Below are positions 26,058 through 44,482 of a stretch of 62,248 nt of DNA, piece by piece. The position numbers and the translations under genes were made by a program. The notes under the pieces are model-generated. The model was not told the origin of the DNA and searched no databases. It was given only the letters and a program-made list of their open reading frames with translations. Each line of letters opens with the position of its first letter. Position 1 is the first letter of the stretch. The stretch comes from Candidatus Methanoperedens sp. (lineage in GTDB: Archaea > Halobacteriota > Methanosarcinia > Methanosarcinales > Methanoperedenaceae). The DNA is taken from positions 1-62,248 of the forward strand of contig JAPMTX010000136.1 in NCBI GenBank assembly GCA_026552855.1, written 5' to 3'.

Positions 26058-26786
26058 TTAATTCCTAATAAGATCAAATAGTTCGTGCCTGTAATCAATA
26101 AAATACGGGCCTTGCATCTGTTGAGTCTTAGGATTATAGGATACATACTGTAGTTCTCTTTCAGGAGGTAAGCATGCCATAATCATTCCTAAAGTCATTG
26201 GTTTTGTCCCCCCTGTAAAATCAGCCCCTATATCTATAGGATTCATACCGTATGTAGAAGCATTGCGGTATATACGTCTAACAACGTCAAAGGTATCCTG
26301 TGCATCAGCAGGAGAGACCTCTTGGGCTATTTCTGCTTTTACCCCGAGTTTATTGCAGGCTTCAATAATTTTATTGGCTGTATCTCTACTGCTACCTCCA
26401 AAGCGTTCTTTTTCCGCATCGCTCGAGGGAAGCAGCCACACATGCTCAAGCTTGCCTTGATCCTTGTGATATTTAATTGAGTGCATTGCATGGTCTTCCC
26501 TTGAGACTAATATTATTAATTCTTTTTTTGGTAGAGGATTTTCCAGATGTTTTCCAAAATCGATTTCTTTAAAGTATCTTTTTCTCATATGCAAAAATAA
26601 AATTAGAGGGATAGATATTATTAGTAAAATAAATACTATCAGCCAGTATAAATTCAAATGTAAAATCTCATATAAATAATTTACAAAAACGCCTAAGACT
26701 ATTGCTGAATAAAACGTCCAAATATGAGCAAAATACGGATGTAGTATTGTATTTTTAAATATCTTAATAGATTCATTAAATCCCAT
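26058..26786 (-). CDS. Membrane-anchored CARF protein (Cam1-like CRISPR effector)
   Basis: A 242-residue protein with two N-terminal membrane helices (about 18-40 and 45-67) and a cytosolic domain from about 88. The domain begins KKELIILVSREDHAMHSIKY. Near 195 it has the nucleotide-loop motif DFTGGTKPMTLGMIMACLP, characteristic of CARF domains that bind cyclic oligoadenylate. The architecture resembles Cam1 and other membrane-CARF effectors, which alter membrane potential when cOA binds, although Cam1 has one helix. Its start overlaps csx3 by 11 bases, and the pair follows the III-D operon. Likely role: the membrane-acting effector of this type III system. Confidence 0.82.
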   Translation of the reverse strand: MGFNESIKIFKNTILHPYFAHIWTFYSAIVLGVFVNYLYEILHLNLYWLIVFILLIISIPLILFLHMRKRYFKEIDFGKHLENPLPKKELIILVSREDHAMHSIKYHKDQGKLEHVWLLPSSDAEKERFGGSSRDTANKIIEACNKLGVKAEIAQEVSPADAQDTFDVVRRIYRNASTYGMNPIDIGADFTGGTKPMTLGMIMACLPPERELQYVSYNPKTQQMQGPYFIDYRHELFDLIRN

Positions 26787-27099
26787 GATTTATTTTCTCC
26801 TTTCCTCCTTGCTGACATTTCAAGACTGAACCAATTTGATGTTCAACAGCGTGAGTTTCCACGACAACAGCACCCTCAAGTCTGGGATCATAGGTGGCTA
26901 TGAACTTAGTAGGATGATAAAAGTGTGTCAGGAAGCAGTATAACCAGATGGGTCCTCTGCCGCTTAAAACAACTCCTTTTGTTTCATTAATTTTTGGAGG
27001 AGTAAGGTGTGCTAAATCTTCTGGACTTATTATACCGGATTCGAATGATATGAACGTGAAGTTATTCTCTTCTTCCACATTAAATTTTATTTTATTCAT
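26776..27099 (-). CDS. csx3: CRISPR-associated Csx3/Crn3 ring nuclease
   Basis: A 107-residue Csx3 protein. The core GVVLSGRGPIWLYCFLTHFY then HPTKFIATYDPRLEGAVVVE is close to characterised archaeal Csx3. It includes the conserved His (HPT) and Asp (YDPRL) implicated in Mn-dependent cA4 degradation. Csx3 removes the cyclic tetra-adenylate messenger and switches off CARF effectors. Overlap with the membrane CARF gene makes a toxin/off-switch pair. AGGAGG lies 12 bases before the ATG. I see no convincing TATA box just upstream, but a degenerate CRISPR repeat lies 42-78 bases ahead of the start. Confidence 0.9.
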   Translation of the reverse strand: MNKIKFNVEEENNFTFISFESGIISPEDLAHLTPPKINETKGVVLSGRGPIWLYCFLTHFYHPTKFIATYDPRLEGAVVVETHAVEHQIGSVLKCQQGGKEKINHGI

Positions 27100-27236: not shown

Positions 27237-28925
27237 CTATAAAACTTTCATAATACGAAAGCCTACAGTGTGTTCCTCGCGGGTACTGTCAGGATATTCT
27301 GCACGAGCCGCCGATCGGCAGTTCGCTGCGAGACTTCCCCAGCAACCGCCTCGAACGACCCGGAGAGGGCTTTCTCTACTTTCCCAGGCACTGCTATCTG
27401 TGGGTGCGTATCTATAGCTATCATGCCACGTGTCTTGAATCCATTCCCAGACATTGCCTATCATGTCATACAATCCCCATGGATTGGGGTTTTTTTGACC
27501 AACTGGATGGGTCTTGCTTTCTGAATTTTCATAATACCACGCATATTCTTCAAGTTTTGAATCATCGTCTGCAAAGAAATAACTTGTAGTCGTGCCAGCA
27601 CGAATCGCATATTCCCATTCTGCTTCGGATGGAAGATAATATTTATTTTCACCTTCCTGCTCGTTCAGTTTTATGATGAATTCCTGAACATCGTTCCATG
27701 ATACTCTTTCAACAGGCAGTTCATTGCCCTCGAAATATGATGGATTGTCTTCCATCAATTCCTCCCACTGACGCTGAGTGACAGGATATACTCCAAGATA
27801 GAATGGCTTATTTATCGTTACTGTACGAACAGGTTTTTCCAAATCCCATCCATATTCTTCTGAACCCATTATGAACTCGCCTGCTGGAATAAGCACGAAC
27901 TCCATACCCATAGAGTTGGTGAAAGTTTCTTTAATAATTTTATCCCTTTCAGCATTTTTCGGCTCTATCTGTCGTGAAGCTCGACTAAAACTCAAATTAC
28001 TGTCAGGAGTTCTATTTTTCTGTCGGGATTTAACACATATTTGTTCGACCAGATAAGATAAAATTTGTTCGATGAGATCATGTTGCCCCCTGGGATACCA
28101 GATGGGACGAATGCCGTAGTCTGAAAGGTTGCGTGCTCTATTGCGGATTTCTTCGTTTGATTCTGGCTCTTCTATGATGGCATAATGCGCTATGGCTGGA
28201 TTTTCTCTTGCCACTTTTCCTATACTCTCTACAGTTCGGTCTTTATTAAGACTACATCCCACGAACAGGATCGTTCGACTGGTCAGCATCTGCTGGAGTA
28301 AACTGGGTAAGAACAAGTTCCGATCAATCTTAGTACCCGAATCACCATAGTGCTTCCTGTAATCAGCCAGTGTAAGTACGCGGTCTGTACGATCCTCAAC
28401 ATCACCATGAATCTTAATAAGATAACTCTTGTTTTGACTTAACGCTTTAGTAAACATATCAACTCTGATGCCCCAAACCACATGATCGAAAGGACGACCC
28501 GCGTTTTTAAATACATTTTCCAATGTATGGTCAAAGTTAGTGGTGATTACTGGTCCTGCAGCCAGTTGAGGTATCAACAAAATTGCGCCATCAAGTTTTT
28601 TCCCATCCAAGATATGATCTCCAAAAGCGTCTTCGATCGCGTCGTTAAAAGCACGATTGCCCATTGTATTTAATAGATCCTCCGCAGCATCCTCATATTT
28701 TCCTGCGTAAATGCGTTCCTGTATCTTTTCTTCGATGCCAACCAATCGTGCTCGTGTAATAAGAAAATCCGTCCAAAGAGGGAAACCAAATGGTCTAGAT
28801 AAACCTGCCCCAACAAATGGGATGACTCCCAGGGATGTTTTAAGCTGCTCAATCAATCGCCGCAGATTATTCTCGTTTTCTTTAAGAATTTCATCGAGTT
28901 TCTTTGATTCATCTTGAAATGACAA
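27237..28925 (-). CDS. SIR2-like NADase fused to FGE/sulfatase-modifying domain
   Basis: A 562-residue fusion. Residues about 1-290 are a SIR2-like domain with FVGAGLSRPFGFPLWTDF (NAD site), ITTNFDHTLENVF and IHGDVEDR (catalytic-type His), as in antiviral SIR2 NAD-depleting proteins. Residues about 335-562 are an FGE-sulfatase/SUMF1 (C-type-lectin-like) domain: GMEFVLIPAGEFIMGSEE, YLPSEAEWEYAIRAG, MIGNVWEWIQDTW, RSAARAEYPDSTREEHTVGF. The active-site cysteine pair of true FGE is not present in its usual spacing, so this half probably binds rather than oxidises. It lies 57 bases after the TIGR03986 RAMP gene in the same direction. Probable abortive-infection effector; link to CRISPR is inference. 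Confidence 0.82.
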   Translation of the reverse strand: MSFQDESKKLDEILKENENNLRRLIEQLKTSLGVIPFVGAGLSRPFGFPLWTDFLITRARLVGIEEKIQERIYAGKYEDAAEDLLNTMGNRAFNDAIEDAFGDHILDGKKLDGAILLIPQLAAGPVITTNFDHTLENVFKNAGRPFDHVVWGIRVDMFTKALSQNKSYLIKIHGDVEDRTDRVLTLADYRKHYGDSGTKIDRNLFLPSLLQQMLTSRTILFVGCSLNKDRTVESIGKVARENPAIAHYAIIEEPESNEEIRNRARNLSDYGIRPIWYPRGQHDLIEQILSYLVEQICVKSRQKNRTPDSNLSFSRASRQIEPKNAERDKIIKETFTNSMGMEFVLIPAGEFIMGSEEYGWDLEKPVRTVTINKPFYLGVYPVTQRQWEELMEDNPSYFEGNELPVERVSWNDVQEFIIKLNEQEGENKYYLPSEAEWEYAIRAGTTTSYFFADDDSKLEEYAWYYENSESKTHPVGQKNPNPWGLYDMIGNVWEWIQDTWHDSYRYAPTDSSAWESRESPLRVVRGGCWGSLAANCRSAARAEYPDSTREEHTVGFRIMKVL

Positions 28926-28982: not shown

Positions 28983-30782
28983 TCACACTTTCTCTGAAAC
29001 TGGCAGAACATTTCTATACCTGAAATCTTTAAGATTCATGTACTCCGTCTTACCACTAACTTCAAGATTTTTGCCTCTTTCAATGTCAAGCAATAATTTC
29101 AACTGTTTGAGCCTATAAGTGTCCCATAAAGAGGAAGCATTTCCTCTATCCCTGCTATCCATGTTCTTAAGGATGTGTTCTTCAAAAGCTGCGGTAATTT
29201 TCTTTGTGTCTTCTTCATTGATTTTAGTTTCTGCCAGTACCCATCCAAAATTATCAAAAAGAGCTGAATATCTTTTTTCTCTATCGATGATGAAAAGCTC
29301 TGGATTGATTTTCACCGAACCCAATCCAAGTGGTTTACCCATGCCGATCTTGTGCCCACACCCCACAGGAAGATACAGAGTAAAAAGTAATGCGCCAAGT
29401 TCATTCTCTGTTAGGTTTTCATACCTTATTCTGAATCTGAAAAGCGTTTTTGGTTTAACAGGCTTGATCTTTGTCTCTATTTTTTTGTTAAAATCTTTTT
29501 GATTTTCCTTTTCCCATTTTGTACCCGATTTATGCCAGTAGAACTTGTTCCCACGGATCCATGTTTCAGAATTATAATGCTTAAGATTCTTCGGGTTCAT
29601 AGAATCCTGTTCCAGATAATGCTGAAAAGTGGTAGGTTTTGGCCCCAGCAATACCTTGGGTACTTTCTCATCCATGAACGGGTTTATGTTCGGGTTAACA
29701 AGCTGGGCATCCTCGAAGAAGACCCGCCCTGCAAAAGAATCTTTGCTTTCCTTGGCAGTATTTCCAAAGATGGCATGGGCAAAATCGATTCTATTTGTAT
29801 TATTATCTGCATCATGTACAGATGGTAAATGTTCTCGGATGGGTTTTCTGTATGCTATGCGGAATAGACCGGTATGACCGAAAGAGATTCTGTGTTTTCC
29901 GTTCTTGTCCTTCCATACGATATAAAAACATGGAACTTCTGGATATTTTTCACACAACTCAAGAAGGTTGGGGACTTTATCGGATCTATTCTCATCCATT
30001 TCATAACTTCTAATATCGATTTCCGGGATGTTAATCTTCTTTTCTGGAGTTCTATTTATTTTGTATATGATCCAATCTTTTTTCCTGGGCATTGATCCAG
30101 AGACAATTACATATCTTCCGTCATGTAATCTATAATAATTAAATTCAGAATAAACCTGTCCATTTTTCTTGACTAATGCCATCGCATCCGATTTACTAAT
30201 TTTTTCAAATTGTTTCCCTTCGGCTGGAAAAATAGCATATTCAAATCCAATTTTTACAAGATATCCGGCAGACATCTTATAAATTGACTTGCCAGTTTTT
30301 TCATCTTTGGGATTTATGGTATTTATATACTCATTACGTAAACTGCTTATATCTGCAAAACTTCTATAATAGAGGTTTTTATCCTCAAAAAATCCGAATC
30401 TGCTCCAGCTTACGATTTCTACCAGATTGCGTACCATTCCTCTAATACTGCTTCCGGGTATACGTACCTTACCAGCAGGTGAAAAAAAATCAGATTTGTC
30501 TTTGGCTTCCATTCCTTTTTTAATTTCATCATCTGCCAGGGTTCCTCTGACATACAGAGGTGTCAATGTCTCCAGTTCGCAATCTATATGTCCTGAAAAC
30601 CTTCCTGAGTGATATTTATCCTGCGGCAATATTTGGTCGGCATCTATCACAGATGTATTCAACGGTACGAAATTATATGGCGCATGTGCCACATAGGCAT
30701 TAGATTTTTTGATATTTTCATTATTGGGTTTTTGTTGCTTGAAACTTTTATTTTGTCGAGTATCTTTATTTCTGTTTGCCAC
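28983..30782 (-). CDS. Type III-D RAMP protein, TIGR03986 family
   Basis: A 599-residue RAMP-superfamily subunit of the effector complex, matching the large TIGR03986 (all1473-type) family of subtype III-D loci. After a basic, low-complexity N-terminus (about 1-45), RAMP features appear: LETLTPLYVRG, the insertion-motif KVRIPGSSIRGMVRNLVEIV near 105, and a C-terminal glycine loop CGHKIGMGKPLGLGSVKINP near 455. It probably forms part of the Cas7-like backbone contacting crRNA. It follows csx19 by three bases. Confidence 0.82.
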   Translation of the reverse strand: MANRNKDTRQNKSFKQQKPNNENIKKSNAYVAHAPYNFVPLNTSVIDADQILPQDKYHSGRFSGHIDCELETLTPLYVRGTLADDEIKKGMEAKDKSDFFSPAGKVRIPGSSIRGMVRNLVEIVSWSRFGFFEDKNLYYRSFADISSLRNEYINTINPKDEKTGKSIYKMSAGYLVKIGFEYAIFPAEGKQFEKISKSDAMALVKKNGQVYSEFNYYRLHDGRYVIVSGSMPRKKDWIIYKINRTPEKKINIPEIDIRSYEMDENRSDKVPNLLELCEKYPEVPCFYIVWKDKNGKHRISFGHTGLFRIAYRKPIREHLPSVHDADNNTNRIDFAHAIFGNTAKESKDSFAGRVFFEDAQLVNPNINPFMDEKVPKVLLGPKPTTFQHYLEQDSMNPKNLKHYNSETWIRGNKFYWHKSGTKWEKENQKDFNKKIETKIKPVKPKTLFRFRIRYENLTENELGALLFTLYLPVGCGHKIGMGKPLGLGSVKINPELFIIDREKRYSALFDNFGWVLAETKINEEDTKKITAAFEEHILKNMDSRDRGNASSLWDTYRLKQLKLLLDIERGKNLEVSGKTEYMNLKDFRYRNVLPVSEKV

Positions 30783-30785
30783 AGA

Positions 30786-31382
30786 CTATACCTCCAAATA
30801 AGCTCCGTTTTTATCTGTAAAAGCTACGAACCTGCAGTCGCCATATCCTGCCTGTTTGTAAGAAGAATCGTATGTTTCATATGAAATATAATTACGGGTT
30901 AAAATGAACGCTCTGTTTTCATTTTTATCGATTTTAAGATCCTTAAAAGGCAGAATAATTTTTGTTCCTCTTTCTTCAAATATCTCGCTGAAATCGCCAA
31001 AGGATTTGGAATTAGTTCCCCAGAGTACCTGCTTTGCATCCACTACATCAATTTCATCTCCATCGCTATCAACCCTTAATCTTCCTCTGAAATTTTTTTT
31101 ATTTTCTCTCCATATGTAAAGCTCTTGATTTTGATCAAATAACCTCATCTTTTGTATAAACCGTGGTTCAAAAGTCTCATTATTATAAAACCTGAAATCA
31201 TCCCCGTCGTATCTACCTATTAATACTTTATAATCGAGATAGAACACACAGAGTGCTTCTTTTTGTCCGAAATTGATTTTCATGAAGGATTTTAAAGAAT
31301 TAAAATCAGTTAATTCAATATTACTGAAATTCAAAACATGCGATTTTATTGTGCAAAGCCTGAGCCCATTGTTCATTTCCAT
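30786..31382 (-). CDS. csx19: CRISPR-associated protein Csx19
   Basis: A 198-residue Csx19 (TIGR03984-type) protein, a marker of subtype III-D. Recognisable segments are QELYIWRENKKNFRGRLRVD, VVDAKQVLWGTNSKSFGDFS, ERGTKIILPFKDL and NRAFILTRNYISYETYDSSY, ending with YGDCRFVAF. Its molecular role is poorly defined; it accompanies csx10 and cas10. Its start overlaps the tandem Cas7 gene by 10 bases. Confidence 0.82.
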   Translation of the reverse strand: MEMNNGLRLCTIKSHVLNFSNIELTDFNSLKSFMKINFGQKEALCVFYLDYKVLIGRYDGDDFRFYNNETFEPRFIQKMRLFDQNQELYIWRENKKNFRGRLRVDSDGDEIDVVDAKQVLWGTNSKSFGDFSEIFEERGTKIILPFKDLKIDKNENRAFILTRNYISYETYDSSYKQAGYGDCRFVAFTDKNGAYLEV

Positions 31383-32758
31383 AGCCTCACTTCCTCCTTA
31401 AGGTTATTTGAAAAATTGTTTAATTCCGATACATTGGATTCACCTGAAGAGATGCCACCTTTTCCATCCGATCTGATTTCTATTTTTTTATCCTTTCCTT
31501 TGCTATCTTTCCATTTGATACAGGCATAAATACCTTTTAAAACTCCCCTGCCCACATTTTTCTCCCCTCCGATTGGGAGGTCTTCGCACCACAGGTCTTT
31601 CAGTACATGCAGTATGAGTCCTGCCTCCCATTCTTTATAATCGCGGATATAGATATTGATATTTACCGATCTATCCTGTTCGCCGCTACTCCACAGTGGC
31701 ATAGTATCAAACAAGGCAGATTTTACAGTTCCGCCTGTAAACCTGTCGATCTTTATTCTGGTTTGCAGTTCTGGTTTAACGCCTTTGATCTCTCGTTCTT
31801 CTATTAAGACACGGCTTTTAATTTTTTCATTGTCATTGTTTTTACCTGCTGTACCGAACAAATGGTTAATTTTTTGTTCGATTTTCTGATTGTCACCTTC
31901 TTTAACAAGAGTCTTGAGGATCTTTGATGCCCTATTGCGTATGGCTCCTTTAATAGAAGTTCCTGGAAGGATAAATTCTCCATTCGAGGTAATACTCGCT
32001 GCGTCTGGCATATCAATTTTCTCTGAATATGCTCTTACAATGATCGAATTCTTCACAGCAAAAGTCGCATCTACGCTGAATACATTATTGTTTTTCTTAT
32101 AGGGTATAAAATCAGAACTCGTTTTGCCTGAAGAGAAATCTTGCCTCAACCATTCCGAGACATCATCCTTTTTTGAAAAATCAAATTCCAGTATCTTAAC
32201 ATCATTCAATTTGCATTTTCCAAAACCATTATTTGTTTTAGCTCCAATTGATATACCAGATTTTAGAGCTTCAATCATTGTACCGAGTATCTGCTTGAAA
32301 GTATCTTTATCATGGATTTGTCTTAAAGTCACTTCCCAGAATAAATCAAATTCAGCGCCCTTTTCTATTATTTCAAAATCATACTTGCCTTCATCCTCAG
32401 CTATTTGTTTCCCAGGATCAATCCTTACACCATCTCTTACACTTATTTTTGTCTCTGAAGAATTGAGGTCATGGCAAATGAAGGTACTTTGTATCGACTT
32501 TAGTTTATCTGGGTCAATTTTTTCAGAAATACCCCAAAAATAATCGAATTGATCGCCTTTTTTTTCAGGAAAGTTATCATTGAAATAATGTCTCAAGACT
32601 CCGATGACTGATGTGGCTGGAATAAAGGGTGTACCGTTCCTGTCTTTTAACACTTCAATATCAACAAACTCATTTTTTCCACCTCCAATAATCAATGGGG
32701 ACTCAAGTCTGAGTTTTCCTTTTATGATTATTTTTCCGACTATGGATTCCTCTTTCAT
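31373..32758 (-). CDS. Tandem Cas7-Cas7 (Csm3-like double RAMP) subunit
   Basis: A 461-residue protein with two RAMP folds. The first (about 1-205) has the N-terminal LRLESPLIIGGGKN, the FIPATSVIGVLRHYF insertion motif and the glycine-rich ISIGAKTNNGFGKC. The second (about 225-430) repeats the order with IIVRAYSEKI, FILPGTSIKGAIRNRA and PIGGEKNVGRGVLKG. Each unit should supply a thumb and a possible cleavage aspartate along the target RNA. Fused Cas7 units occur in III-D/III-E lineages. The last 30 residues are polar and unassigned. Confidence 0.82.
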   Translation of the reverse strand: MKEESIVGKIIIKGKLRLESPLIIGGGKNEFVDIEVLKDRNGTPFIPATSVIGVLRHYFNDNFPEKKGDQFDYFWGISEKIDPDKLKSIQSTFICHDLNSSETKISVRDGVRIDPGKQIAEDEGKYDFEIIEKGAEFDLFWEVTLRQIHDKDTFKQILGTMIEALKSGISIGAKTNNGFGKCKLNDVKILEFDFSKKDDVSEWLRQDFSSGKTSSDFIPYKKNNNVFSVDATFAVKNSIIVRAYSEKIDMPDAASITSNGEFILPGTSIKGAIRNRASKILKTLVKEGDNQKIEQKINHLFGTAGKNNDNEKIKSRVLIEEREIKGVKPELQTRIKIDRFTGGTVKSALFDTMPLWSSGEQDRSVNINIYIRDYKEWEAGLILHVLKDLWCEDLPIGGEKNVGRGVLKGIYACIKWKDSKGKDKKIEIRSDGKGGISSGESNVSELNNFSNNLKEEVRLWK

Positions 32759-32759
32759 A

Positions 32760-34307
32760 TCAGTCCCTCCCTTTCTTTTTTGTCAGACGCATACTTCGTA
32801 GGAATGTAACCCAATAAAATTTGTAAATTTCTGTTTTTGTCGCACTATCGGTTTCTGGATTATATTCAATCAAGTCGCAGCATTCATTTAAGTGCTGTTC
32901 TGGTTCTATAATTTTTATAATGTTTGCTTCACTGCCCCTGATAAATTCAATAAGATCTACGTTCTGGTTTCGGCACCTTTTCAATTTTTCCGTTGTAGGC
33001 TCAGGCAGATTGTTTATCTTAACGATAAAATCTCCAGCGTTATTTGAATCGTTTAACATTAATTCTAGTTTTCCAAGCAGTGAACTGGTTGGTATTCGAT
33101 CTTTATCTTCGCAAAAATTTTGACAATCCGATAGAGCCTGAATTTCTGTTCGTGTATGATATGATTTGATCACCATATTCATTATGACATCTTTTGTTAT
33201 TTGGGGTACGCTACTATCTGGTTTTCCGGTTTTCTTGCCTGCAACATCTTGAAGTTTATATTCTCCATGTTTCTGCAGATTTATCACAAAACGTCCGAAC
33301 CCTTCACATGTTCGCTCACCAATACCGGTTTTTTGCAATTCTATCAATGATTGCTTTGTTTTTTCATTCAGATCGTCAATAAATATCTCAAAACAAGAAC
33401 CTGCCTTGATCACTTCCTCGCTGGGTCTTTTCAAAAGCCATTTAGAAACAAAATTTTCGACTGTTTCGCTCCTCTTAAATGTCTTTTTTATATGGATATT
33501 TTCAGGCGGAACTTCTAGGATCCCAGCTAGATAGGACATTAAATCCAAAAGAGAGGTGGATGAGAAGCCATTCTTGTTGTATATGATCGCCTGTGATAAA
33601 AATGTAAGAATAAAAGGATTACCGATTTTTTCAAGATTTAAAGAATCAATTTCAGAGGCAAATATCTCAGGTTTATGAGAGACAAAGCTTAGCTCAGCCT
33701 GTCCATATTGAATATTCTTTGATCTTCCAAGGTTAACCTTTACATTTGATTTAAAATGGTCTAAAATTATGTTAAGGTCTTTTTCATCTCCAATAATCCT
33801 TCCTGAAAATTCCTGCATGGGATCAAGTGATTCGTAATTAAATATAATTCCTTCATCACTATGACCCTTTAGCCTATCATATCTTGCATGATGAAAGTTA
33901 ATGGATTTGTGGGCTCTTATAAAGTTGATTTTATCGTCTGTGATTTTACAGTACTTACCAACATATTTTGTCTGATCGGTAATATCCTCTTTTTTTATCC
34001 GATCGAAAATTGTGTCCTCTTTAGTCTTTACCGACTGGATGGAGAGAGGCGTAGGATGATGGTTTGTATCATCTTTGAGATAAGCATTCGTAAAACAAAA
34101 TCCGGGATTTAGAAAACAATTATAAAAGAAATCATCTTTATGTGCTTCGGATCCAAGTTTTTTCTGTTCTATATATCTCTTGGCAAATATTCCTCTTATG
34201 ATAGATCCGGGGATATAATCCAAAGTTGAGATCATATTTGTATCCCCGGATATCGATGTCAGAAGGACTGGCGATATCGTCTTGATAATGTAGCGTATTT
34301 GGTGCAT
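32760..34307 (-). CDS. csx10: Csx10 (Cas5-like group 5 RAMP)
   Basis: A 515-residue Csx10, the Cas5-like subunit that caps the crRNA 5' handle in III-D complexes. The N-terminus IKTISPVLLTS and the YIPGSIIRGIFAKRYIEQ motif (about 32-50) are typical RAMP elements. Central NLGRSKNIQYGQAELSFVSH and GIGERTCEGFGRFVINL (near 305) give the glycine-rich loops. The last ~190 residues are mainly helical, which might supply the missing small-subunit (Cas11-like) function because no separate cas11 gene is visible. That last point is inference. Confidence 0.8.
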   Translation of the reverse strand: MHQIRYIIKTISPVLLTSISGDTNMISTLDYIPGSIIRGIFAKRYIEQKKLGSEAHKDDFFYNCFLNPGFCFTNAYLKDDTNHHPTPLSIQSVKTKEDTIFDRIKKEDITDQTKYVGKYCKITDDKINFIRAHKSINFHHARYDRLKGHSDEGIIFNYESLDPMQEFSGRIIGDEKDLNIILDHFKSNVKVNLGRSKNIQYGQAELSFVSHKPEIFASEIDSLNLEKIGNPFILTFLSQAIIYNKNGFSSTSLLDLMSYLAGILEVPPENIHIKKTFKRSETVENFVSKWLLKRPSEEVIKAGSCFEIFIDDLNEKTKQSLIELQKTGIGERTCEGFGRFVINLQKHGEYKLQDVAGKKTGKPDSSVPQITKDVIMNMVIKSYHTRTEIQALSDCQNFCEDKDRIPTSSLLGKLELMLNDSNNAGDFIVKINNLPEPTTEKLKRCRNQNVDLIEFIRGSEANIIKIIEPEQHLNECCDLIEYNPETDSATKTEIYKFYWVTFLRSMRLTKKKGRD

Positions 34308-34309
34308 TT

Positions 34310-34981
34310 TTATGCCTCTTTTATCTTATTTTCCAGATCGATCAGATATTTTTCTTCCAACGCTATTCCTCTATCATTCAGTAGATTGCATTTTATTGAG
34401 CCAAAACCACGGTTCCTGTTTGTACCTATATATCGCAGGTTTCTCACAGTAAGAGCAAGAAAGCTTAACAACCGCTCTTCAATTTCATTTGCGGTTTCAA
34501 TTTCTCCAAAAAAAGCATTGCCTTTCGTCAGGACCCTTGAAGTTCTCAATGAATGATCCTTTGCGATCCCATTACTATCTATGGCTGTTTGTTGTCTTGT
34601 TATGGAGAAAGTGCTTAGGATTATTTCTTTTGAGAAGAAATCTGGATATTTCTTTATCAACCATTCAAGCCATTTCTTATTTGAATCATATTCTTTTAAA
34701 TAACAACTTGAAAATGAAAGTATACATGGTTGATCTTGGCCGGGTTTGCCAAAGAGCACCTCTATATCTTCGTTTGAAGCAGTACCTATACCTGATATTT
34801 CAAACATTTCCACTACTTCGGTTGCAGATTCCCGAAGACAGCCTTTTACTCTTCTCGCCGGGATGTACGGCAGTCCAATATCATCGAATACAACATCACG
34901 ATCAATACTTGCACCCCATCCTTCTCCCGATCCAATTAAAGTATCGGACAATAGTTCTAATCTAAGCATAAGAAGGGACAT
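34310..34981 (-). CDS. Cas7-type RAMP (Csm3-like)
   Basis: A 223-residue single-domain Cas7. The core motifs are LELLSDTLIGSGEGWGASID at the N-terminus, LPYIPARRVKGCLRESATEV (insertion motif) and YIGTNRNRGFGSIKCNLL (C-terminal glycine loop). In group-7 subunits an aspartate in the early loop cuts target RNA; ASIDRDVVFD is a candidate. Its ATG shares a base with the cas10 stop (TAATG), showing tight coupling. Confidence 0.83.
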   Translation of the reverse strand: MSLLMLRLELLSDTLIGSGEGWGASIDRDVVFDDIGLPYIPARRVKGCLRESATEVVEMFEISGIGTASNEDIEVLFGKPGQDQPCILSFSSCYLKEYDSNKKWLEWLIKKYPDFFSKEIILSTFSITRQQTAIDSNGIAKDHSLRTSRVLTKGNAFFGEIETANEIEERLLSFLALTVRNLRYIGTNRNRGFGSIKCNLLNDRGIALEEKYLIDLENKIKEA

Positions 34982-36534
34982 TATTTATTGCCTCCAAGAT
35001 CAACAGGATAGAATTCCATCAATTCCAGCATATCAAAATAGGGAGTTTTATTTACGTCACTTATCCACCCTGTCTCCCGGCATTCAGGCTGATTCTTTAC
35101 ATCCGGCAGAAAACGACCTCTATAAGCCATTTCCTTTAAGAACATCCGGACTGCCGGGATTCCGAGTCCCAGTGCTTCTCTGAGTTCTGACAGCTTTGAG
35201 TTAGGCCATTTAGTCTGATCTGAAATTTTCAGGTATCTGATACCCTTTATGCATTCACTGAGGTTTTGATAATCCTCTTTTTCACTTACGACCCTGTAGG
35301 GTCTTAAACAAAGATTTCGCTCTGAAACTGAGTAGTTCTTTTTCCTTATGTCTTCTATTGAACCTGAAAAACCTCCATATGCAATGTGAAAATCCAGCCA
35401 CGATGAGCCTTCTTCTTCACGTGCATTCTTCTTTGCATGACTGCAAAGTTTTTCAGCAAGGTTATATCCCCTGTAAAAAGGATATTTCGTCTTCGTTATT
35501 GCAATACCTGCACAGGAGGAGAGTCTACTTTTGTCACTTACCTTTTGCCCTGTGAACGCTTTCATGAAAATCTCAGCAAAATAGACGCCCAGTTTTCCAT
35601 GCGATACAAATGTAACATCATCCCCTCCCATGATGATCGGTCTGATGGGAAGCATATTATTTGATAGCCTAAAATTTTCCTCGAAATAGCCATAGTTTTG
35701 TATTATATTACCCAATAGTTCTATGAATGATCTCTCAGTGGCTTCGTGGACTGCTCGTGAGAGATTTCTAATTTCCTCAAGCGTCCTGCATGATTGGAAT
35801 CTCTTTCCCATGCCGTTCCCATCGATATGGACAATTGAAATATAATTGTCACCTTCATTTTGTCCCAGTTTATCGAGTTCTGCTGGAAAATCATATTTAT
35901 CTTTCAAGACATCGCGAAACTTTTTTTTCATTTCATTCTTTGCTTTTTCTACATTCGCTATCTTTGATTTTGCAACAGAAGAAATGTATATATTATCATC
36001 TTTATCGTAGCATTCACCGGACAGACCGGTATGGCTGCATTCGGCAGTTATCCCGTGTCTTGGAAGCGTTGTTTGAGGCTGGTTTTCATATTTATTTTCA
36101 CTTAAAATCCTGAATAAATTTCCAATCACAGGTTGAAACTTATCTTTATCTGAAAGATCGGCGCATTCTATATTCTTGTTAATGGCGATTGAAGGCATCA
36201 ATCCCGGCGCTTCTATAAGGAGTCTTTTTGACCACTGTTTTGCAAGTTCAACTGCTGTTTCAGCATCTTTGAAAAAGAGCATGGCATTTCCTCCCCCAAT
36301 ATATCCGACCTCCATCTCAATATCAGTGCCGCATATACTTACCTTTCCAGGACTTTTACGCCATTCATCGAGATTTACAGTTCCTAAGGAGATTTCTTCA
36401 AGTGCTGTTTCCAGATTATATTTGAAAATATTTTCAATAAGATACGATGCTCCGAGGCTTTCTTTTAATTTGTTGCTGCTGAATACATATTTTTGGATGG
36501 AAGCTACTTCAAGTAAGACCGCTGTAATTTTCAT
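34981..36534 (-). CDS. cas10: Cas10, HD-less, with GGDD cyclase
   Basis: A 517-residue signature subunit of type III systems. It makes cyclic oligoadenylates when the complex binds target RNA. The palm motif PIIMGGDDVTFVS (GGDD near 303) is intact. The first palm contains VHIDGNGMGKRF near 235. Cysteine/histidine residues in TAECSHTGLSGEC suggest a zinc site. There is no N-terminal HD nuclease domain; the protein begins directly with the first palm-like region (LLEVASIQKYVFSSNKLKES). DNA cleavage is therefore not expected, so immunity should depend on RNA cleavage and cOA signalling. First gene of the operon. Confidence 0.9.
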   Translation of the reverse strand: MKITAVLLEVASIQKYVFSSNKLKESLGASYLIENIFKYNLETALEEISLGTVNLDEWRKSPGKVSICGTDIEMEVGYIGGGNAMLFFKDAETAVELAKQWSKRLLIEAPGLMPSIAINKNIECADLSDKDKFQPVIGNLFRILSENKYENQPQTTLPRHGITAECSHTGLSGECYDKDDNIYISSVAKSKIANVEKAKNEMKKKFRDVLKDKYDFPAELDKLGQNEGDNYISIVHIDGNGMGKRFQSCRTLEEIRNLSRAVHEATERSFIELLGNIIQNYGYFEENFRLSNNMLPIRPIIMGGDDVTFVSHGKLGVYFAEIFMKAFTGQKVSDKSRLSSCAGIAITKTKYPFYRGYNLAEKLCSHAKKNAREEEGSSWLDFHIAYGGFSGSIEDIRKKNYSVSERNLCLRPYRVVSEKEDYQNLSECIKGIRYLKISDQTKWPNSKLSELREALGLGIPAVRMFLKEMAYRGRFLPDVKNQPECRETGWISDVNKTPYFDMLELMEFYPVDLGGNK

Positions 36535-36875: not shown

Positions 36876-39133
36876 GCTTCAATCCTTGTTTTCGTAGATA
36901 GGCTTCTGCAATGCTTGCCATCAAGCTTGCAACAGACAATGTAAAAGAAAGTTTCAATCCTTGTTTTCGTAGATAGGCTTCTGCAATGCTTGCCATCAAG
37001 CTTGCAACAGACAATGTAAAAGAAAGTTTCAATCCTTGTTTTCGTAGATAGGCTTCTGCAATTTCTAAGGAGGCTAAAATATGAATATAGAGAAAGTAGG
37101 TTTCAATCCTTGTTTTCGTAGATAGGCTTCTGCAATGAGCGACTATAAGGCGCCGATTTCGCCCGAAGAGGAGCAGTTTCAATCCTTGTTTTCGTAGATA
37201 GGCTTCTGCAATCAGGCAGGTACACTCGGCAGCAGTTCAGGGCATCTGTTTCAATCCTTGTTTTCGTAGATAGGCTTCTGCAATAAAGTAATGAATCCCC
37301 GATACCCCTTCTCAAAAACAGTTTCAATCCTTGTTTTCGTAGATAGGCTTCTGCAATTTACAGTTATCGGAGGTAGCATCTTGAAGAACACAGTTTCAAT
37401 CCTTGTTTTCGTAGATAGGCTTCTGCAATAATGCGCTGTGGCTGCCGCGACGCCTGCGTCGCAGGGTTTCAATCCTTGTTTTCGTAGATAGGCTTCTGCA
37501 ATAGATAAAGCGGGTCGGCTCTCCGAACAACCATTTCGTTTCAATCCTTGTTTTCGTAGATAGGCTTCTGCAATACAGAATCGGCGGGAACTGATGATAT
37601 TAACCGTCGGATAGTTTCAATCCTTGTTTTCGTAGATAGGCTTCTGCAATTATGCCAAAGCGGACCACCAGGATATCACGTAACCATAAGTTTCAATCCT
37701 TGTTTTCGTAGATAGGCTTCTGCAATAAGCGAGGATCAGGGAGCGACCGTTATCGAGTTTCTAAGTTTCAATCCTTGTTTTCGTAGATAGGCTTCTGCAA
37801 TCCACTACGGATTCTCAAGGTCAATTTCAGTTACCTTGTTTCAATCCTTGTTTTCGTAGATAGGCTTCTGCAATTGGAATGTTTGGGGGAGTCATATTAA
37901 CGTCTTACCAAAAGTTTCAATCCTTGTTTTCGTAGATAGGCTTCTGCAATAGACCTTCCTTTAAAATATGTGGGATTGCGTGGCATGTTTCAATCCTTGT
38001 TTTCGTAGATAGGCTTCTGCAATGCATCAAAAGAAAGGAATAGGTACTGAACTATTAAAGTTTCAATCCTTGTTTTCGTAGATAGGCTTCTGCAATATAC
38101 GTGATAGACAATCGCGGCTTAGCGAATATAAAAGAGTTTCAATCCTTGTTTTCGTAGATAGGCTTCTGCAATATTGACACAACACCGCCGGCGAGCATCA
38201 CGAAACTGAGTTTCAATCCTTGTTTTCGTAGATAGGCTTCTGCAATATGAGAAAATGAAGAACGCAGGAAATTAGTGGCGTTATTGTTTCAATCCTTGTT
38301 TTCGTAGATAGGCTTCTGCAATCGCTCGAAACACTGGTCGGACCCGCTGAGATAAGAAAGTTTCAATCCTTGTTTTCGTAGATAGGCTTCTGCAATCAAT
38401 TGAGAACGCAGTAGATGCAGTAAGCGATATAAAGTTTCAATCCTTGTTTTCGTAGATAGGCTTCTGCAATCAGTGATATAATGGGTGCGAAAAATGTTGA
38501 CAGGTTAAGTTTCAATCCTTGTTTTCGTAGATAGGCTTCTGCAATGTACATCATATCGAAAATATTTGATCGATTGTATAAAAGTTTCAATCCTTGTTTT
38601 CGTAGATAGGCTTCTGCAATAAACCCAATGTGAGTGAAGATGATATTCTGCGAAAAAGTTTCAATCCTTGTTTTCGTAGATAGGCTTCTGCAATTCGAAG
38701 AACGCATAACAAGGATTGCGGAGGAAGAAAAGTTTCAATCCTTGTTTTCGTAGATAGGCTTCTGCAATCCCGCATCTATATACCAATCCAGACATCTGGG
38801 TTGAGTTTCAATCCTTGTTTTCGTAGATAGGCTTCTGCAATAAAAGACACAGGAGATCTCCGTTTTAGCGGAACAATTGTTTCAATCCTTGTTTTCGTAG
38901 ATAGGCTTCTGCAATACACCAACCTTCATAAAAGTTGTCAATCAATCAATGTTTCAATCCTTGTTTTCGTAGATAGGCTTCTGCAATTGGGAGCGCATAT
39001 TCGAGCACGCGCAGCAAGAAGCGAAGTTTCAATCCTTGTTTTCGTAGATAGGCTTCTGCAATCCGCGATGATGGCTGTAATCGTGACATTGGTGCAGTTT
39101 CAATCCTTGTTTTCGTAGATAGGCTTCTGCAAT
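36876..39133 (-). CRISPR. CRISPR array, 31 repeats of 37 nt, 30 spacers
   Basis: Counted directly: 31 repeats (36876-36912 through 39097-39133) and 30 spacers of 34-39 nt. On the plus strand repeats begin GTTTCAATCCTTGTTTTCG and end GGCTTCTGCAAT. The reverse strand ends ATTGAAAC, the usual crRNA handle, so transcription is leftward. The leftmost repeat has one substitution (GCTTC), as expected at the old trailer end, and all others appear identical. Spacers 1 and 2 are identical, a 75-bp unit duplication. Spacer 3 contains a Shine-Dalgarno and ATG in sense on the plus strand. No spacer was seen to match elsewhere in the window, but the check was not exhaustive. Confidence 0.98.
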
Positions 39134-39365
39134 AGGGTCGATTTTTGCTTTTTTCAGCGTTATCTCCCTTTTAATGCCTCCTTTTTTGATTGTCAAAAGG
39201 TGAGTCGAAAATTTGCAGGGGGATATATAAAGACTCACCTGTATTAAAGGTTTCCATCGCTATGCATCGCCATTGTGAAAATTCTGATTTCCGGAATTTC
39301 GAACTATACGGGTTCCTATCGAACTATTCTGCAACTATCTTATATGCAAAAAATTAAAATGTTGA
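39134..39365 (-). promoter_or_regulatory. CRISPR leader and divergent RT promoter
   Basis: The 232 bases right of the array are the leader. On the minus strand a TATA-like TTTATATATCC (about 39221-39231) points into the array. This box is enclosed by a perfect 9-bp inverted repeat, AGGTGAGTC (39198-39206) and GACTCACCT (39232-39240). On the plus strand CTTATATGC near 39338-39347 lies about 25 bases before the RT start codon. Between them CGGGTTCCTATCGAACTATT (39309-39328) resembles an element upstream of the tubulin-like gene. Confidence 0.65.
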
Positions 39366-40616
39366 ATGAATATGAGGCATACCTCGCAGCAGGAAACCCT
39401 GCATGAGTTTCAGGTCAGGTTATTCAAAGAGGCTAAATCAAATCCGGGGAAAAAGTTTAATAACATTCATCATTGGCTCTGGGATGAAGAAGTTCTCACG
39501 CTAGCCTGGGAAAGTGTGAAAAAGAATAAAGGGGTAGGTGGAGTAGATAATCTGAACATCGATGACATTGAGAGCCACGGAGTCACGAAGTTTCTTAATA
39601 ATATTAGATTTGAAATAAAAAACGGCAGCTATGAACCAAGTCCCGTTAAACGAGTTTACATACCCAAGAGCAACGGCAGGCTCAGACCGCTTGGAATAGC
39701 CACTATAAAGGACAGGGTGGCTCAAACAGCCGTGAAACTTGTTATCGAGCCAATCTTTGAAGCGGGTTTTGAGGAGTTTTCTTACGGTTTCAGACCTGAC
39801 AGGTCTACAAAAAACGCCTGCACGGCTGTTTGCAGGTGGCTGAATGCAGGCTGCGTAAATGTATTTGATGCCGATATAGTTTCTTGCTTTGACAGCATCC
39901 CCCATAACAGGCTCATGGAGCAGGTCAAACGAAGGTTTGCGGATACTTACATTCTCTCATTGATAGATTCATGGCTTTGCGCTGGCATCCTGGAGAAGGG
40001 TAAACTGCACTATACAGATAAAGGTACCCCGCAGGGAGGTGTGATTTCACCCCTGCTGTCCAACATATATCTTGACCAATTTGACAAGAAGTGGAAGATA
40101 AATGAAACAGGGGTTAGAAAAAAAGCTCATCTGGTGAGGTATGCGGACGATTTCGTTATTTTATCTGAGGGATTGATTTCATTTGAACCAGTCAAAAAAA
40201 TATTGAACTCTCTGGAATTAAGGGTTAACCGGGAAAAAACGCGCATACTTCATGCCAAAAATGGTTTTGATTTTCTTGGGTTCCATTTCAAATTGATCAG
40301 GCAGCAAGATAAACAGAAAGCTGCCGTTACTCCGACCAGTAAATCTCTCAAAAAAGTGATAGAAAAGATAAATGAGCTAACAGGTGAAAACAACTTCCAT
40401 GTTCCGCCTGAAAGATTAATAATCAGAATAAATCAAGTTCTGAGTAGCTGGGCAAGTTACTATTCCGATACCGGTTCTTCTGGTGCAATGAAGCACATTC
40501 AAGATTATTGCGAGGAATGCGTTCGGAACTGTGTACAGTGTTATAAAGGAGTGCCCAAAAATCAGATTTCAGACAAATATTTACATGAAGAGTTGGGTTT
40601 GGTGCGGATAGTATGA
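39366..40616 (+). CDS. Group II-type reverse transcriptase, CRISPR-located
   Basis: A 416-residue reverse transcriptase of the group II intron/CRISPR-RT class. Motifs: KKNKGVGGVDNLNIDDIE (RT1), YIPKSNGRLRPLGIATIKDR (RT2), FDADIVSCFDSI (A), GTPQGGVISPLLSNIYLDQF (B), LVRYADDFVIL (C, catalytic YADD), REKTRILHA (D), FDFLGFHF (E). A maturase-like thumb follows (INQVLSSWASYYSD). There is no HNH endonuclease. No domain V ribozyme sequence is seen in the 27 bases before cas4 or in the leader, so this is not an intact intron. It sits between leader and the cas4-cas2-cas1-cas6 genes, converging on cas4. Possible role: spacer acquisition from RNA. Confidence 0.88.
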   Translation: MNMRHTSQQETLHEFQVRLFKEAKSNPGKKFNNIHHWLWDEEVLTLAWESVKKNKGVGGVDNLNIDDIESHGVTKFLNNIRFEIKNGSYEPSPVKRVYIPKSNGRLRPLGIATIKDRVAQTAVKLVIEPIFEAGFEEFSYGFRPDRSTKNACTAVCRWLNAGCVNVFDADIVSCFDSIPHNRLMEQVKRRFADTYILSLIDSWLCAGILEKGKLHYTDKGTPQGGVISPLLSNIYLDQFDKKWKINETGVRKKAHLVRYADDFVILSEGLISFEPVKKILNSLELRVNREKTRILHAKNGFDFLGFHFKLIRQQDKQKAAVTPTSKSLKKVIEKINELTGENNFHVPPERLIIRINQVLSSWASYYSDTGSSGAMKHIQDYCEECVRNCVQCYKGVPKNQISDKYLHEELGLVRIV

Positions 40617-40643: not shown

Positions 40644-41222
40644 TCATATTCTTTTACAGAATTTTTTGTAATAACAATCGGCGCATTTATTAGAATCGGT
40701 GGTCGGAACTGGAAGCGTCTCAGAAATCAATACTTTTTGCATATGATTTATTGTCTTTATCACATCATCCTTCAGTGCTTTTAGCATTTCTACTTTCACC
40801 ACATTTCCATTTGATATTGATTTTATATACCCGAAAGGTACTTTTTTGCCCAGCACTTCTTCTATTGCAATCGATTGAGCTGCAAGCTGTAGTTTATGTA
40901 CATAAAATAATTTCGTTAAGGATGATTTGAATTCCACAGGGTAGGCGAACGTCTCATTGAACATCAAACAGTCGATTTTTACGTTGAAATTAAATTTTTT
41001 TGATTTTAAATTTATTTCGAATTTTTTTATCAGCTTCGGCAGCCCCTTAATAATCTTTGCTCTTTTTGATTTGTCCTCGATGCATTTATGGGAGTCCGAG
41101 CCTCTTGCCATCTTGGGAGTCCTTTCTTTTCCCGCTTTTAAGACGTAATTGAAATAAAAACATCTTGGACAGTAAATGAAATCAACAATATCCGTGACCG
41201 AGAGATAACCTTCTTTGTCCAT
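40644..41222 (-). CDS. cas4: Cas4 exonuclease
   Basis: A 192-residue Cas4, a PD-(D/E)XK nuclease with an iron-sulfur cluster that trims prespacers and selects PAMs during adaptation. It has the N-terminal cysteine region TDIVDFIYCPRCFYFNYVL and a C-terminal CADCYYKKFCKR cluster. The nuclease core contains VKIDCLMFNETFAYPVEFKS (D...E-x-K) and LQLAAQSIAIEEVLG. Its start lies one base after the cas2 stop. Cas4 is less common in pure type III loci, so the adaptation module may also serve, or derive from, a type I system. Confidence 0.9.
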   Translation of the reverse strand: MDKEGYLSVTDIVDFIYCPRCFYFNYVLKAGKERTPKMARGSDSHKCIEDKSKRAKIIKGLPKLIKKFEINLKSKKFNFNVKIDCLMFNETFAYPVEFKSSLTKLFYVHKLQLAAQSIAIEEVLGKKVPFGYIKSISNGNVVKVEMLKALKDDVIKTINHMQKVLISETLPVPTTDSNKCADCYYKKFCKRI

Positions 41223-41223
41223 A

Positions 41224-41520
41224 TCACCTGATTATTGCTAACACTTTCGTCCTGAACAGGTTCTCATCGAAATCCTTGCCTACTGTAATCTTTTTTCCGA
41301 CACAGGAGTCGCATGTTGGCAAAATAAAAATACAATCTTTGCTGCCGTTTTTATCCTTCATAACATCTTCTATTTCAATTCCAAGCATTTGCGCATCGTT
41401 CAAGCTTAAATTCCCAAAAAATGCACTTTTTTGAAGCCTTGAAAGACCGTAATCTTTACATTTTTCCGAAATCTTCCTCCTGAGGCTATTATCAGATATA
41501 TCATATATTACCTCACATTC
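41224..41520 (-). CDS. cas2: Cas2, no canonical start codon
   Basis: The reading frame encodes a clear Cas2: ECEVIYDISDNSLRRKISEK, then CKDYGLSRLQKSAFFGNL, ending in FILPTCDSCVGKKITVGKDF and NLFRTKVLAIIR. Cas2 is the structural dimer of the Cas1-Cas2 integrase. The frame is open from 41535 to the stop at 41224-41226 but contains no ATG, GTG or TTG before the conserved EVIYD strand. An ATG at 41525 is in the wrong frame by one base and would give MRNVR-stop. Either a one-base indel damaged the 5' end, a rare start codon is used, or the assembly has an error here. Confidence 0.82.
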   Translation of the reverse strand, partial: ECEVIYDISDNSLRRKISEKCKDYGLSRLQKSAFFGNLSLNDAQMLGIEIEDVMKDKNGSKDCIFILPTCDSCVGKKITVGKDFDENLFRTKVLAIIR

Positions 41521-42009: not shown

Positions 42010-43011
42010 TTACCATTTGTAAATAAAAGGCTCATATTTTTCATTTTCGTTCAAGAATTTCACAAGGCTTCTTGCCTGCTTTAAAATGATATCAAGCAAA
42101 GTGATTTTCTCTTTTTTATAACTTATAGCTGTATTAAATCTCTCAACGACAGCCTCGATCGCTTTACTTCTGCCGTTCTTGTTCAGATATACGCCATTTC
42201 CTTCCTTCTCAACATCCTTTTCATCGATCATTTTTCTCTGGATAAGCGTTATCATGGCTCTGTCTATGATAGGCTGCCTGAACTCCTCTATCAGGTCAAG
42301 CGCCATTGAAGGTTTGCCGTATCTGTCGGTATGCAAAAATCCAAGATACGGATCCAGACCTGAAATTATGCACGCCTTCTCTACTTCTGAGTAAAGTATC
42401 CCGTACCCGTATCCCAGCAGTGCATTAAACGCATCACCGGGAGGTCTTTTGATTCTGGCACCAGTATAAAGGTTAGAAGGAAGTATCTTCCCCAGCACTT
42501 GAAAATATACCCTGGAAGCTTCACCCTCTATTCCTAAAAGCTTCTCTCTGATATCATCTATTCTTTTCCCTTCAATATTTTCGATTTTAGTAACCACCCC
42601 TGAGATATATTTTGCTTTCTCCTCTAACTCTTTATTTTCCCTGCTTTTGCCAAGAGCCCTCAAGAGGTATGCCTGATTCTCAATCTTGGCTTTTAGAAAG
42701 GCTTTTACAATAAACATACCCTTATTAGAGAAATAGGCTTCCAGTTGCCTCCTTCTTGTTAAAGTGGTACCGCCGAGCCTGCAAGGATAAACTCTGGCAA
42801 GTGGTCTTCCAACGTTATCTACAATCACAATATCTATTCCTTTTTCTGCCGCCAGTGCCATCGAATCCGTGGATATAGCCGAGCCTTTCAGGATCAATAT
42901 CTGCGAGACATCATCCGCGCAAAACTCTTCGGACTTATCCCCGTAGCTCACCAGGAATCTATTGCTCTTTTTCTTAACGAATGCGCCGAAGTTATCCACT
43001 ACAAGGTACAT
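42010..43011 (-). CDS. cas1: Cas1 integrase
   Basis: A 333-residue Cas1, the metal-dependent integrase that inserts spacers at the leader end. The N-terminal beta domain (about 1-85) starts MYLVVDNFGAFVKKKSNRFL. The helical catalytic domain contains LLGIEGEASRVYFQVLGKIL (first Glu), GYGYGILYSEVEKACIISGL, DPYLGFLHTDRYGKPSMALD (His and Asp) and LDLIEEFRQPIIDRA. Catalytic residues are all present. The gene starts directly after the cas6 stop (43011/43012). Confidence 0.95.
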   Translation of the reverse strand: MYLVVDNFGAFVKKKSNRFLVSYGDKSEEFCADDVSQILILKGSAISTDSMALAAEKGIDIVIVDNVGRPLARVYPCRLGGTTLTRRRQLEAYFSNKGMFIVKAFLKAKIENQAYLLRALGKSRENKELEEKAKYISGVVTKIENIEGKRIDDIREKLLGIEGEASRVYFQVLGKILPSNLYTGARIKRPPGDAFNALLGYGYGILYSEVEKACIISGLDPYLGFLHTDRYGKPSMALDLIEEFRQPIIDRAMITLIQRKMIDEKDVEKEGNGVYLNKNGRSKAIEAVVERFNTAISYKKEKITLLDIILKQARSLVKFLNENEKYEPFIYKW

Positions 43012-43683
43012 TTAGCTCTCCCCGCCTGCGTTCATTACGACCCCGAATCCCTGGGAAACTCCCTTTCCAATCCCAAAAAACTGCGGTATTTCAAAATTTA
43101 TTATAAAGTAACCTGTGAAACCAATTACCTGTGTTGCTTTATATTTCACCTTTTCCATGTCTAAATGAGTACTGGTATAGAGTTCATTATTAACAGTGAT
43201 ACCCAAACCTTTGCACATTGAAAGAATATTCCCTACAAGAATACTATTTAAGAACTCTTTTTTATCCTTCCAGTGATTTAGTCCGCAAAATTTTTTATGA
43301 TTCTCCGGATTAAGCGCCAACCAGGGGCTTACAAATTTATAATGAACAGGATGATCAATGGGTTTTAGTTCAACCTCCTGTTCGTATAAAATCCTCTGCT
43401 CTATATTATACACGCTATTTCCAAGAACAAGAGTATCGATACTGTTAGATATTTCTTTAATAACCCTGGCACCTTCTTCTATCCCGAGGATAGAAGCCGT
43501 GCCGCCCAGCACTTTATACTGTATCATGGGATAGGTATAGATGTATCCCTCTTTTATGTGATTGTGAAGAAGAGCATGATCCGGGAATCTACCACCAATA
43601 AAACCTCTAAGTTTTGAAGAAGGCTCTACTACAGGTTTTTTTGTTCTGAAAACAAGGTATGTTGTTTTGATAGTCATAACCAA
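43012..43683 (-). CDS. cas6: Cas6 crRNA endoribonuclease
   Basis: A 223-residue RAMP-type Cas6, predicted to cut repeat RNA and leave the AUUGAAAC handle. The N-terminal strand IKTTYLVFRTKKPV is followed by a ferredoxin-like repeat, with a possible catalytic His in the FPDHALLHNHIKE segment. The C-terminal glycine-rich loop FGIGKGVSQGFGVVMN is typical. The C-terminal part resembles the less common Cas6 group found with archaeal type III loci. It is the only Cas6 in the window and so should serve the array and any repeat-like RNA elements. Confidence 0.82.
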   Translation of the reverse strand: MVMTIKTTYLVFRTKKPVVEPSSKLRGFIGGRFPDHALLHNHIKEGYIYTYPMIQYKVLGGTASILGIEEGARVIKEISNSIDTLVLGNSVYNIEQRILYEQEVELKPIDHPVHYKFVSPWLALNPENHKKFCGLNHWKDKKEFLNSILVGNILSMCKGLGITVNNELYTSTHLDMEKVKYKATQVIGFTGYFIINFEIPQFFGIGKGVSQGFGVVMNAGGES

Positions 43684-43708: not shown

Positions 43709-44482
43709 TCATAATATTTTGCCAAAGCCGATTTTTTCCCACTTTGCCAGATTGGCATAAAAATTTCCAGCGTCTGTGAGCTTTAACACTTTTATTTTTT
43801 TATTTTCTATTGTTTTATTTTTTATTATATTATATTTCTTAATTTGTATTGTTTTATTATATGGACTGGTTTCTACCAACCCTTTATTTATTAAATTAGT
43901 AAGATGCGTAGTAAGCGTGTTACTTTTGATTTTTACACCTGCTGCCACTTTACTGGCGATTCGTTCTTCATCTTTCTCATGCCCTAAAAGATACAGAAGT
44001 ATCTCGTTCTCCTTCTCTGTAATCTTCTTATCCTTTAGATTTGGGATTTCTATAACAACCTCTCCTTCATTGGCATCCCTCTTCTCACGTAAATAAAAAG
44101 CCTTTACACCTTCAATCCATGCAGCGCAAACCGCCGCTCCCGACATTATATTTGTTCCGCCGGTTAAATTTAAAATTTTATCTTTATTTTTTGGTATTCC
44201 TCTTAAAATCCGGATAAGTTTAATCAGGCAATCCTGAAAATCAAATGGATTCACCGTCTCTATATCCACTTCGATATTCAACGCCAGAGCCAGGTCTTTT
44301 TTTAGCTTATTGGCAAGTTCTGCTGGACTTTTTAATTCTTTGTCTTTTTTAAGTTGGTTTTCTGGAATTACTCTGTTTATCGACTCGCCAGCCACAATAA
44401 TAATTTTTTCTGCACCGTATATTCTAATCCCTTCTCGTACAACACTTTCTGACAATCCCAAGGTTGCTATTTGTATTACCAT
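43709..44482 (-). CDS. csa3: Csa3-like CARF-winged-helix regulator
   Basis: A 257-residue transcription regulator. Residues about 1-135 are a CARF domain (IATLGLSESVVREGIRIYGA; ligand loop LNLTGGTNIMSGAAVCAAW near 105). Residues about 155-235 are a winged helix (ITEKENEILLYLLGHEKDEE, SNTLTTHLTNLINKGLVETS). Csa3 proteins bind cyclic tetra-adenylate and control cas adaptation genes and CRISPR RNA. It is the first gene of a leftward run csa3-cas6-cas1. Dyads upstream of cas10, in the leader and in its own promoter are candidate operators. Confidence 0.87.
   Translation of the reverse strand: MVIQIATLGLSESVVREGIRIYGAEKIIIVAGESINRVIPENQLKKDKELKSPAELANKLKKDLALALNIEVDIETVNPFDFQDCLIKLIRILRGIPKNKDKILNLTGGTNIMSGAAVCAAWIEGVKAFYLREKRDANEGEVVIEIPNLKDKKITEKENEILLYLLGHEKDEERIASKVAAGVKIKSNTLTTHLTNLINKGLVETSPYNKTIQIKKYNIIKNKTIENKKIKVLKLTDAGNFYANLAKWEKIGFGKIL

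Follow-up and report, generated by a model that had tools for sequence, protein, structure and literature searches.

Type III CRISPR arrays tend to carry spacers that match the coding strand, with crRNAs that pair with the mRNA, a tendency that is much weaker in type I-B (Vink et al. 2021, PMC8482600). From mapped targets, the coding-strand share has been put at 65% on average and at 88% for the III-B system of Moraxella (PMC8482600). In Thermus thermophilus, whose type III systems have no reverse transcriptase (RT), selection produces the same bias, and without selection spacers are taken up from both strands (Artamonova et al. 2020, PMC7515739). Stand-alone group-II-like RTs at archaeal type III loci, with no intron RNA, have been described as the RT-CRISPR-1 clade of Methanosarcinaceae (Toro et al. 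2017, PMC5541045) and as branch 11 of Silas et al. 2017 (PMC5513706). For most spacers of type III arrays linked to an RT, no target is known (PMC5513706), which makes strand bias hard to measure there by mapping.

The window, a 62,248-nucleotide stretch of DNA from Candidatus Methanoperedens sp., carries a locus of this kind, with a CRISPR array inside a full type III-D locus, effector genes to its left and the RT with the adaptation genes to its right. Its parts are as follows.

26058–26786, minus: CARF-like protein, weak match (TIGR02710)
26776–27099, minus: Csx3 ring nuclease (TIGR02579)
27237–28925, minus: protein with a SIR2-like and an FGE-sulfatase domain, encoded beside Csx3 where the III-D operon ends; it may be a signal-activated effector
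28983–30782, minus: Cas7-type RAMP protein, TIGR03986 family
30786–31382, minus: Csx19 (TIGR03984)
31373–32758, minus: Cas7-type RAMP protein (Csx7/Csm3-like)
32760–34307, minus: Csx10, the Cas5 of III-D (TIGR02674 below cut-off; PADLOC Cas5_IIId)
34310–34981, minus: Cas7-type RAMP protein
34981–36534, minus: Cas10, subtype III-D, GGDD present
36876–39133, minus: CRISPR array; crRNA strand minus, the spacers' plus strand reading as mRNA sense
37063–37099, plus: spacer with Shine-Dalgarno AAGGAGG and ATG (sequence, motif test)
37358–37392, plus: spacer with GGAGGT and a TTG start (sequence, motif test)
39134–39365, minus: presumed array leader/promoter in the gap next to the RT, so placed because of how the repeat is oriented and because the degenerate repeat lies at the opposite end
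39366–40616, plus: stand-alone group-II-intron-like RT with YADD and a maturase domain; no intron RNA found
40644–41222, minus: Cas4
41224–41508, minus: Cas2 (TIGR01573), start codon uncertain: no clear ATG, GTG or TTG at the expected start, an unusual start or a frameshift being possible
42010–43011, minus: Cas1
43012–43683, minus: Cas6
43709–44482, minus: CARF-type protein and probable regulator; it reads as Csa3-like and by profile matches PF19810 (HFX_2341 N-terminal family)

Cas10 matches PADLOC Cas10d at 2e-130 and has its cyclase motif GGDD at residue 303, Csx19 matches TIGR03984, and the TIGR03986 match is above cut-off; Csx10 matches TIGR02674 at E 5e-29, yet under the cut-off of that family. 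Judged by these genes, the locus is a type III-D CRISPR-Cas system, with RNA-activated interference predicted. The RT gave no match to intron families, even at E up to 5. In a tree with midpoint rooting only, it is sister to the archaeal CRISPR RTs (support 94/88) and stands apart from bacterial RT-Cas1. It resembles the RTs of RT-CRISPR-1 and branch 11 and differs from them in belonging to another family of the order, to which the host family and Methanosarcinaceae both belong. The gene order differs as well: in the locus of Silas et al. (PMC5513706) the RT lies by cas6 and cas1 is missing, whereas here cas1, cas2 and cas4 are beside it. With the RT-Cas1 of Marinomonas mediterranea (PMC11014452) the locus shares the tie of an RT to type III adaptation genes, and also A-rich spacer ends, which are non-coded in Marinomonas. 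There, however, the RT is fused to Cas1 and spacers are integrated either way; here the RT is separate and the orientation one-sided. The unit formed by the stand-alone RT, the array and cas1 is conserved in other loci (L052, L053, L179, L187 and L248; loci used for comparison carry L numbers). In different Methanosarcinales it pairs with III-D, III-A and III-B effectors, as if the adaptation part switches effector types.

The strand of the crRNAs was read from the repeat. It terminates in ATTGAAAC on the minus strand, where Rfam CRISPR-DR7 also matches it (E 7e-4, under its gathering score), and these two observations support transcription from the minus strand, as an earlier sequence-only reading had assumed. 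A degenerate repeat and a duplicate spacer at 36876–37025 suit the leader-distal end. Exact copies of the repeat were absent from IMG/VR and from searched contigs of other genomes. The window's own genome has one array with this repeat; its type I repeat was assembled in a single copy, too few for a type I control.

The array consists of 31 repeats of 37 nt and 30 spacers, 29 of them distinct, with 36913–36950 and 36988–37025 identical letter for letter. Over the 29 distinct spacers a script counted 630 purines among 1073 plus-strand bases (0.587), the share being above half in 23 spacers, equal to half in three and below it in three; the hand count of the sequence-only reading is thereby reproduced exactly. 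The bias is significant by sign-flip permutation (p 1.5e-5), t-test (7e-6) and Wilcoxon test (9e-5). It is chiefly an excess of A (0.349) over T (0.212); that of G over C is not significant by itself (p ~0.1). The last plus-strand base is A in 20 of the 29 spacers, and this terminal motif adds to the bias, which nevertheless survives removal of 10 nt from the A-rich end (p 3e-4) or of 6 nt from both ends (p 0.002). It is present in each half of the array, the newer (0.609 purine) and the older (0.567). In 20,000 draws of 29 random-strand 37-mers from the window's genes, 0.587 was never reached; all-sense draws reached it in 2.5%. The observed value is thus at the upper edge of the range expected from all-sense sampling.

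The protospacer check that the sequence-only reading had proposed was run on phage, plasmid and IMG/VR collections and gave no credible match. Queried as one stretch, the window's array had one chance match among phages (E 0.7) and none among plasmids; the arrays of L053, L051, L187, L059 and L179 against phages, and that of L187 also against plasmids, gave nothing credible; and codon-degenerate scans of IMG/VR, six with spacers of the window and one with spacers of L187, found no match. Because credible protospacers were not found, the strand was tested in an alignment-free manner. A codon model was trained on long open frames from related loci and each spacer was scored with it; of the held-out sense 37-mers, 78% receive a score above zero. 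A mixture fit then converts the scores to a sense fraction, that is, the fraction of spacers whose crRNA-complementary strand is mRNA sense.

For the window's array the sense fraction is 1.0 (CI 0.84–1), a model-based figure which presumes that the codon use of the targets roughly resembles that of related hosts. Arrays of the same repeat class that were fetched after the test had been set up (210 spacers) gave a purine fraction of 0.578 and a sense fraction of 1.0 (0.925–1). The RT-linked repeat class as a whole, pooled under GC-matched models, comprises 14 arrays and 360 spacers with a sense fraction of 1.0 (0.97–1), to be read with the caveat that spacers within one array are not fully independent and that the grouping is partly post hoc. 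Its effectors are of types III-D, III-A (L179, with Csm1 and Csm4) and III-B (L187, with Cmr2 and Cmr3), and the purine fraction exceeds 0.5 in 14 of 14 arrays. The array of L205 was re-oriented by hand on account of its repeat end, ATTGAAGC; the final comparison excludes L062, L063, L064 and L195, whose arrays have repeats of the GGTAAC type and an orientation that is only assumed.

Two further observations come from the spacers alone. When the mean score of each spacer's own shuffles was subtracted, which strips the purine effect, the RT-linked group retained a mean excess of 0.93 (p 6e-9), compared with 0.95 for genuine sense 37-mers, and type I-B arrays had none (mean −0.005); over the 360 spacers this composition-free codon signal has a p of 9e-19. 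In addition, of 150 spacers 10 have a Shine-Dalgarno sequence followed by a start codon on the crRNA-complementary strand, and not one has it on the crRNA strand; in a replication set the counts are 8 and 0, hence 18 spacers against 0 in total. Two of the window's own spacers carry the motif (37063–37099 and 37358–37392). The nine arrays whose fetched stretch also includes an RT (243 spacers) contribute 13 vs 0, and the five placed by repeat or contig (117 spacers, purine 0.577) contribute 5 vs 0. The excess of start sites over type I arrays is not significant (p 0.08), and overlapping spacer pairs were too few to serve as an orientation test.

Individual spacers offer some leads. In the L187 array (L187:14399–16698), two spacers that are not neighbours share 17 nt on one strand, across a start site that would encode the signal-peptide-like MIKKFFTLTMLV; another L187 spacer reads as a pentapeptide repeat, and a gene in a related genome matches it in sense. 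The window's spacer at 38024–38059 may read as the acetyltransferase-like HQKKGIGTELLK, which we give as a lead only.

Type I-B arrays served as controls. In the window's genus their sense fraction is 0.48 (0.40–0.56) with the first model and 0.495 (0.41–0.575) with GC-matched models. The RT class differs from type I-B by a 2dLL of 99 in the window's genus and of 63 in Methanosarcinaceae. Of the control loci as a whole, two were verified as I-B (Cas3, Cas5b) and the rest assigned by repeat family and neighbouring genes. The Methanosarcinaceae arrays (L248, L249, L251, L255 and L257) show a weaker antisense excess, 0.65 (0.585–0.72) with GC-matched models, that is absent in the window's genus; perhaps their spacers are shared with type III effectors. 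Taken together, composition, composition-free codon use, one-sided start sites, relatives and type I controls support the proposal of the sequence-only reading that the crRNAs of the window's spacers are antisense to mRNA, a conclusion drawn statistically and without mapped targets.

Is the RT responsible? Type III arrays that lack an RT and have their own cas1 show a sense fraction of 0.95 (0.815–1), indistinguishable from the RT class (2dLL 1.09). A first comparison had made them slightly less biased (2dLL 4.0), a difference that is gone with GC-matched models. The most biased array of all, L051 (purine 0.638), is among the window's closest relatives by effector genes and has no RT visible in its locus, although its contig starts shortly before cas1 and its genome has other group-II-like RTs. 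Among bacterial III-D arrays the sense fraction is 0.81 with an RT and 0.885 without. For these reasons, the bias tracks type III rather than the RT: it goes with type III arrays that target RNA and have adaptation genes of their own. The sequence-only reading had also seen in the bias a fit to an RT able to capture spacers from RNA. The bias does not support that part: since RT-less type III arrays share the bias, it neither requires nor shows RNA capture and is no evidence for it, and the studied RT-Cas1, which does capture RNA, integrates both ways (PMC11014452).

A separate feature is the spacers' plus-strand 3′ end, corresponding to the crRNA 5′ end. In the window, L053, L059, L179 and L187, the last base is A at a frequency of 0.60 against a background of 0.37, and the end is C-poor. 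Type I-B arrays have a weaker terminal A (0.43 against 0.285), so the terminal A was rejected as a specific trace of RT tailing.

Type III effectors act only when the crRNA pairs with a transcript, and so only antisense spacers would protect. Cas1-Cas2 probably captures spacers from both strands, with or without help from the RT, and the spacers retained would be those that let the cell survive. The purine excess would then be the imprint of purine-rich mRNA on the crRNA-complementary strand. We regard it as likely that selection after two-strand capture has left spacers whose crRNAs are antisense to the mRNA of the elements they target. In our analysis, selection for working spacers would suffice to explain the bias. 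The sequence-only reading had named selection after unbiased capture as its alternative, and it is this that fits best, given the precedent in Thermus (PMC7515739) and the equal bias of RT-less arrays. In Thermus the cause was shown by experiment and no RT is present, whereas here natural arrays were only read. Two points count against selection: the near-total bias leaves scant space for the passenger spacers that selection alone would be expected to leave, which directed capture would account for more easily, and the bacterial III-D arrays are less extreme.

Directed capture would mean that the stand-alone RT copies mRNA and that Cas1-Cas2 integrates the copy in one fixed orientation, so that spacers are antisense-only from the start without selection. 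In keeping with it are the YADD-bearing RT next to the array and cas1, an arrangement that is conserved among relatives, the ceiling value of the RT-linked arrays and the A-rich plus-strand ends, which recall the 3′ dA tails put on RNA by an RT-Cas1 (PMC11014452). Nevertheless, we consider it unlikely: the bias is the same in RT-less type III arrays, it peaks in L051 (with the reservation about that genome's other RTs), among bacterial III-D arrays the bias is no greater where an RT is present, terminal A extends to type I-B, and the studied RT-Cas1 integrates in both orientations. If true, it would set this system apart from known RT-Cas1 systems.

Less probable still is that Cas4-Cas1 selects DNA by a T/C-rich PAM, which, being commoner on the template strand, would yield antisense crRNAs irrespective of RNA. 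Cas4 is present and the crRNA spacer starts with T in 20 of 29 cases, but no bias (0.495) is seen in the genus's type I-B arrays, where Cas4, Cas1 and the terminal T are found as well, and so short a motif would scarcely produce a fraction near 1. A base preference of the integration machinery or a skewed DNA source, either of them independent of mRNA, would agree with the purine excess being mostly A over T; we give this very little credence in view of the codon phase beyond composition and the one-sided start sites.

A strand bias of type III spacers is already known. The present analysis adds its near-total degree, the alignment-free test and the indifference to the RT: compared with Vink et al. 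(2021), the fraction here is near 100% and was obtained in arrays without known targets. The RT may broaden the source of spacers to RNA. With codon use and start sites, the test needs nothing but the spacers to tell their orientation and separates RNA-targeting from DNA-targeting arrays in related organisms, and directed capture versus selection becomes a testable question.
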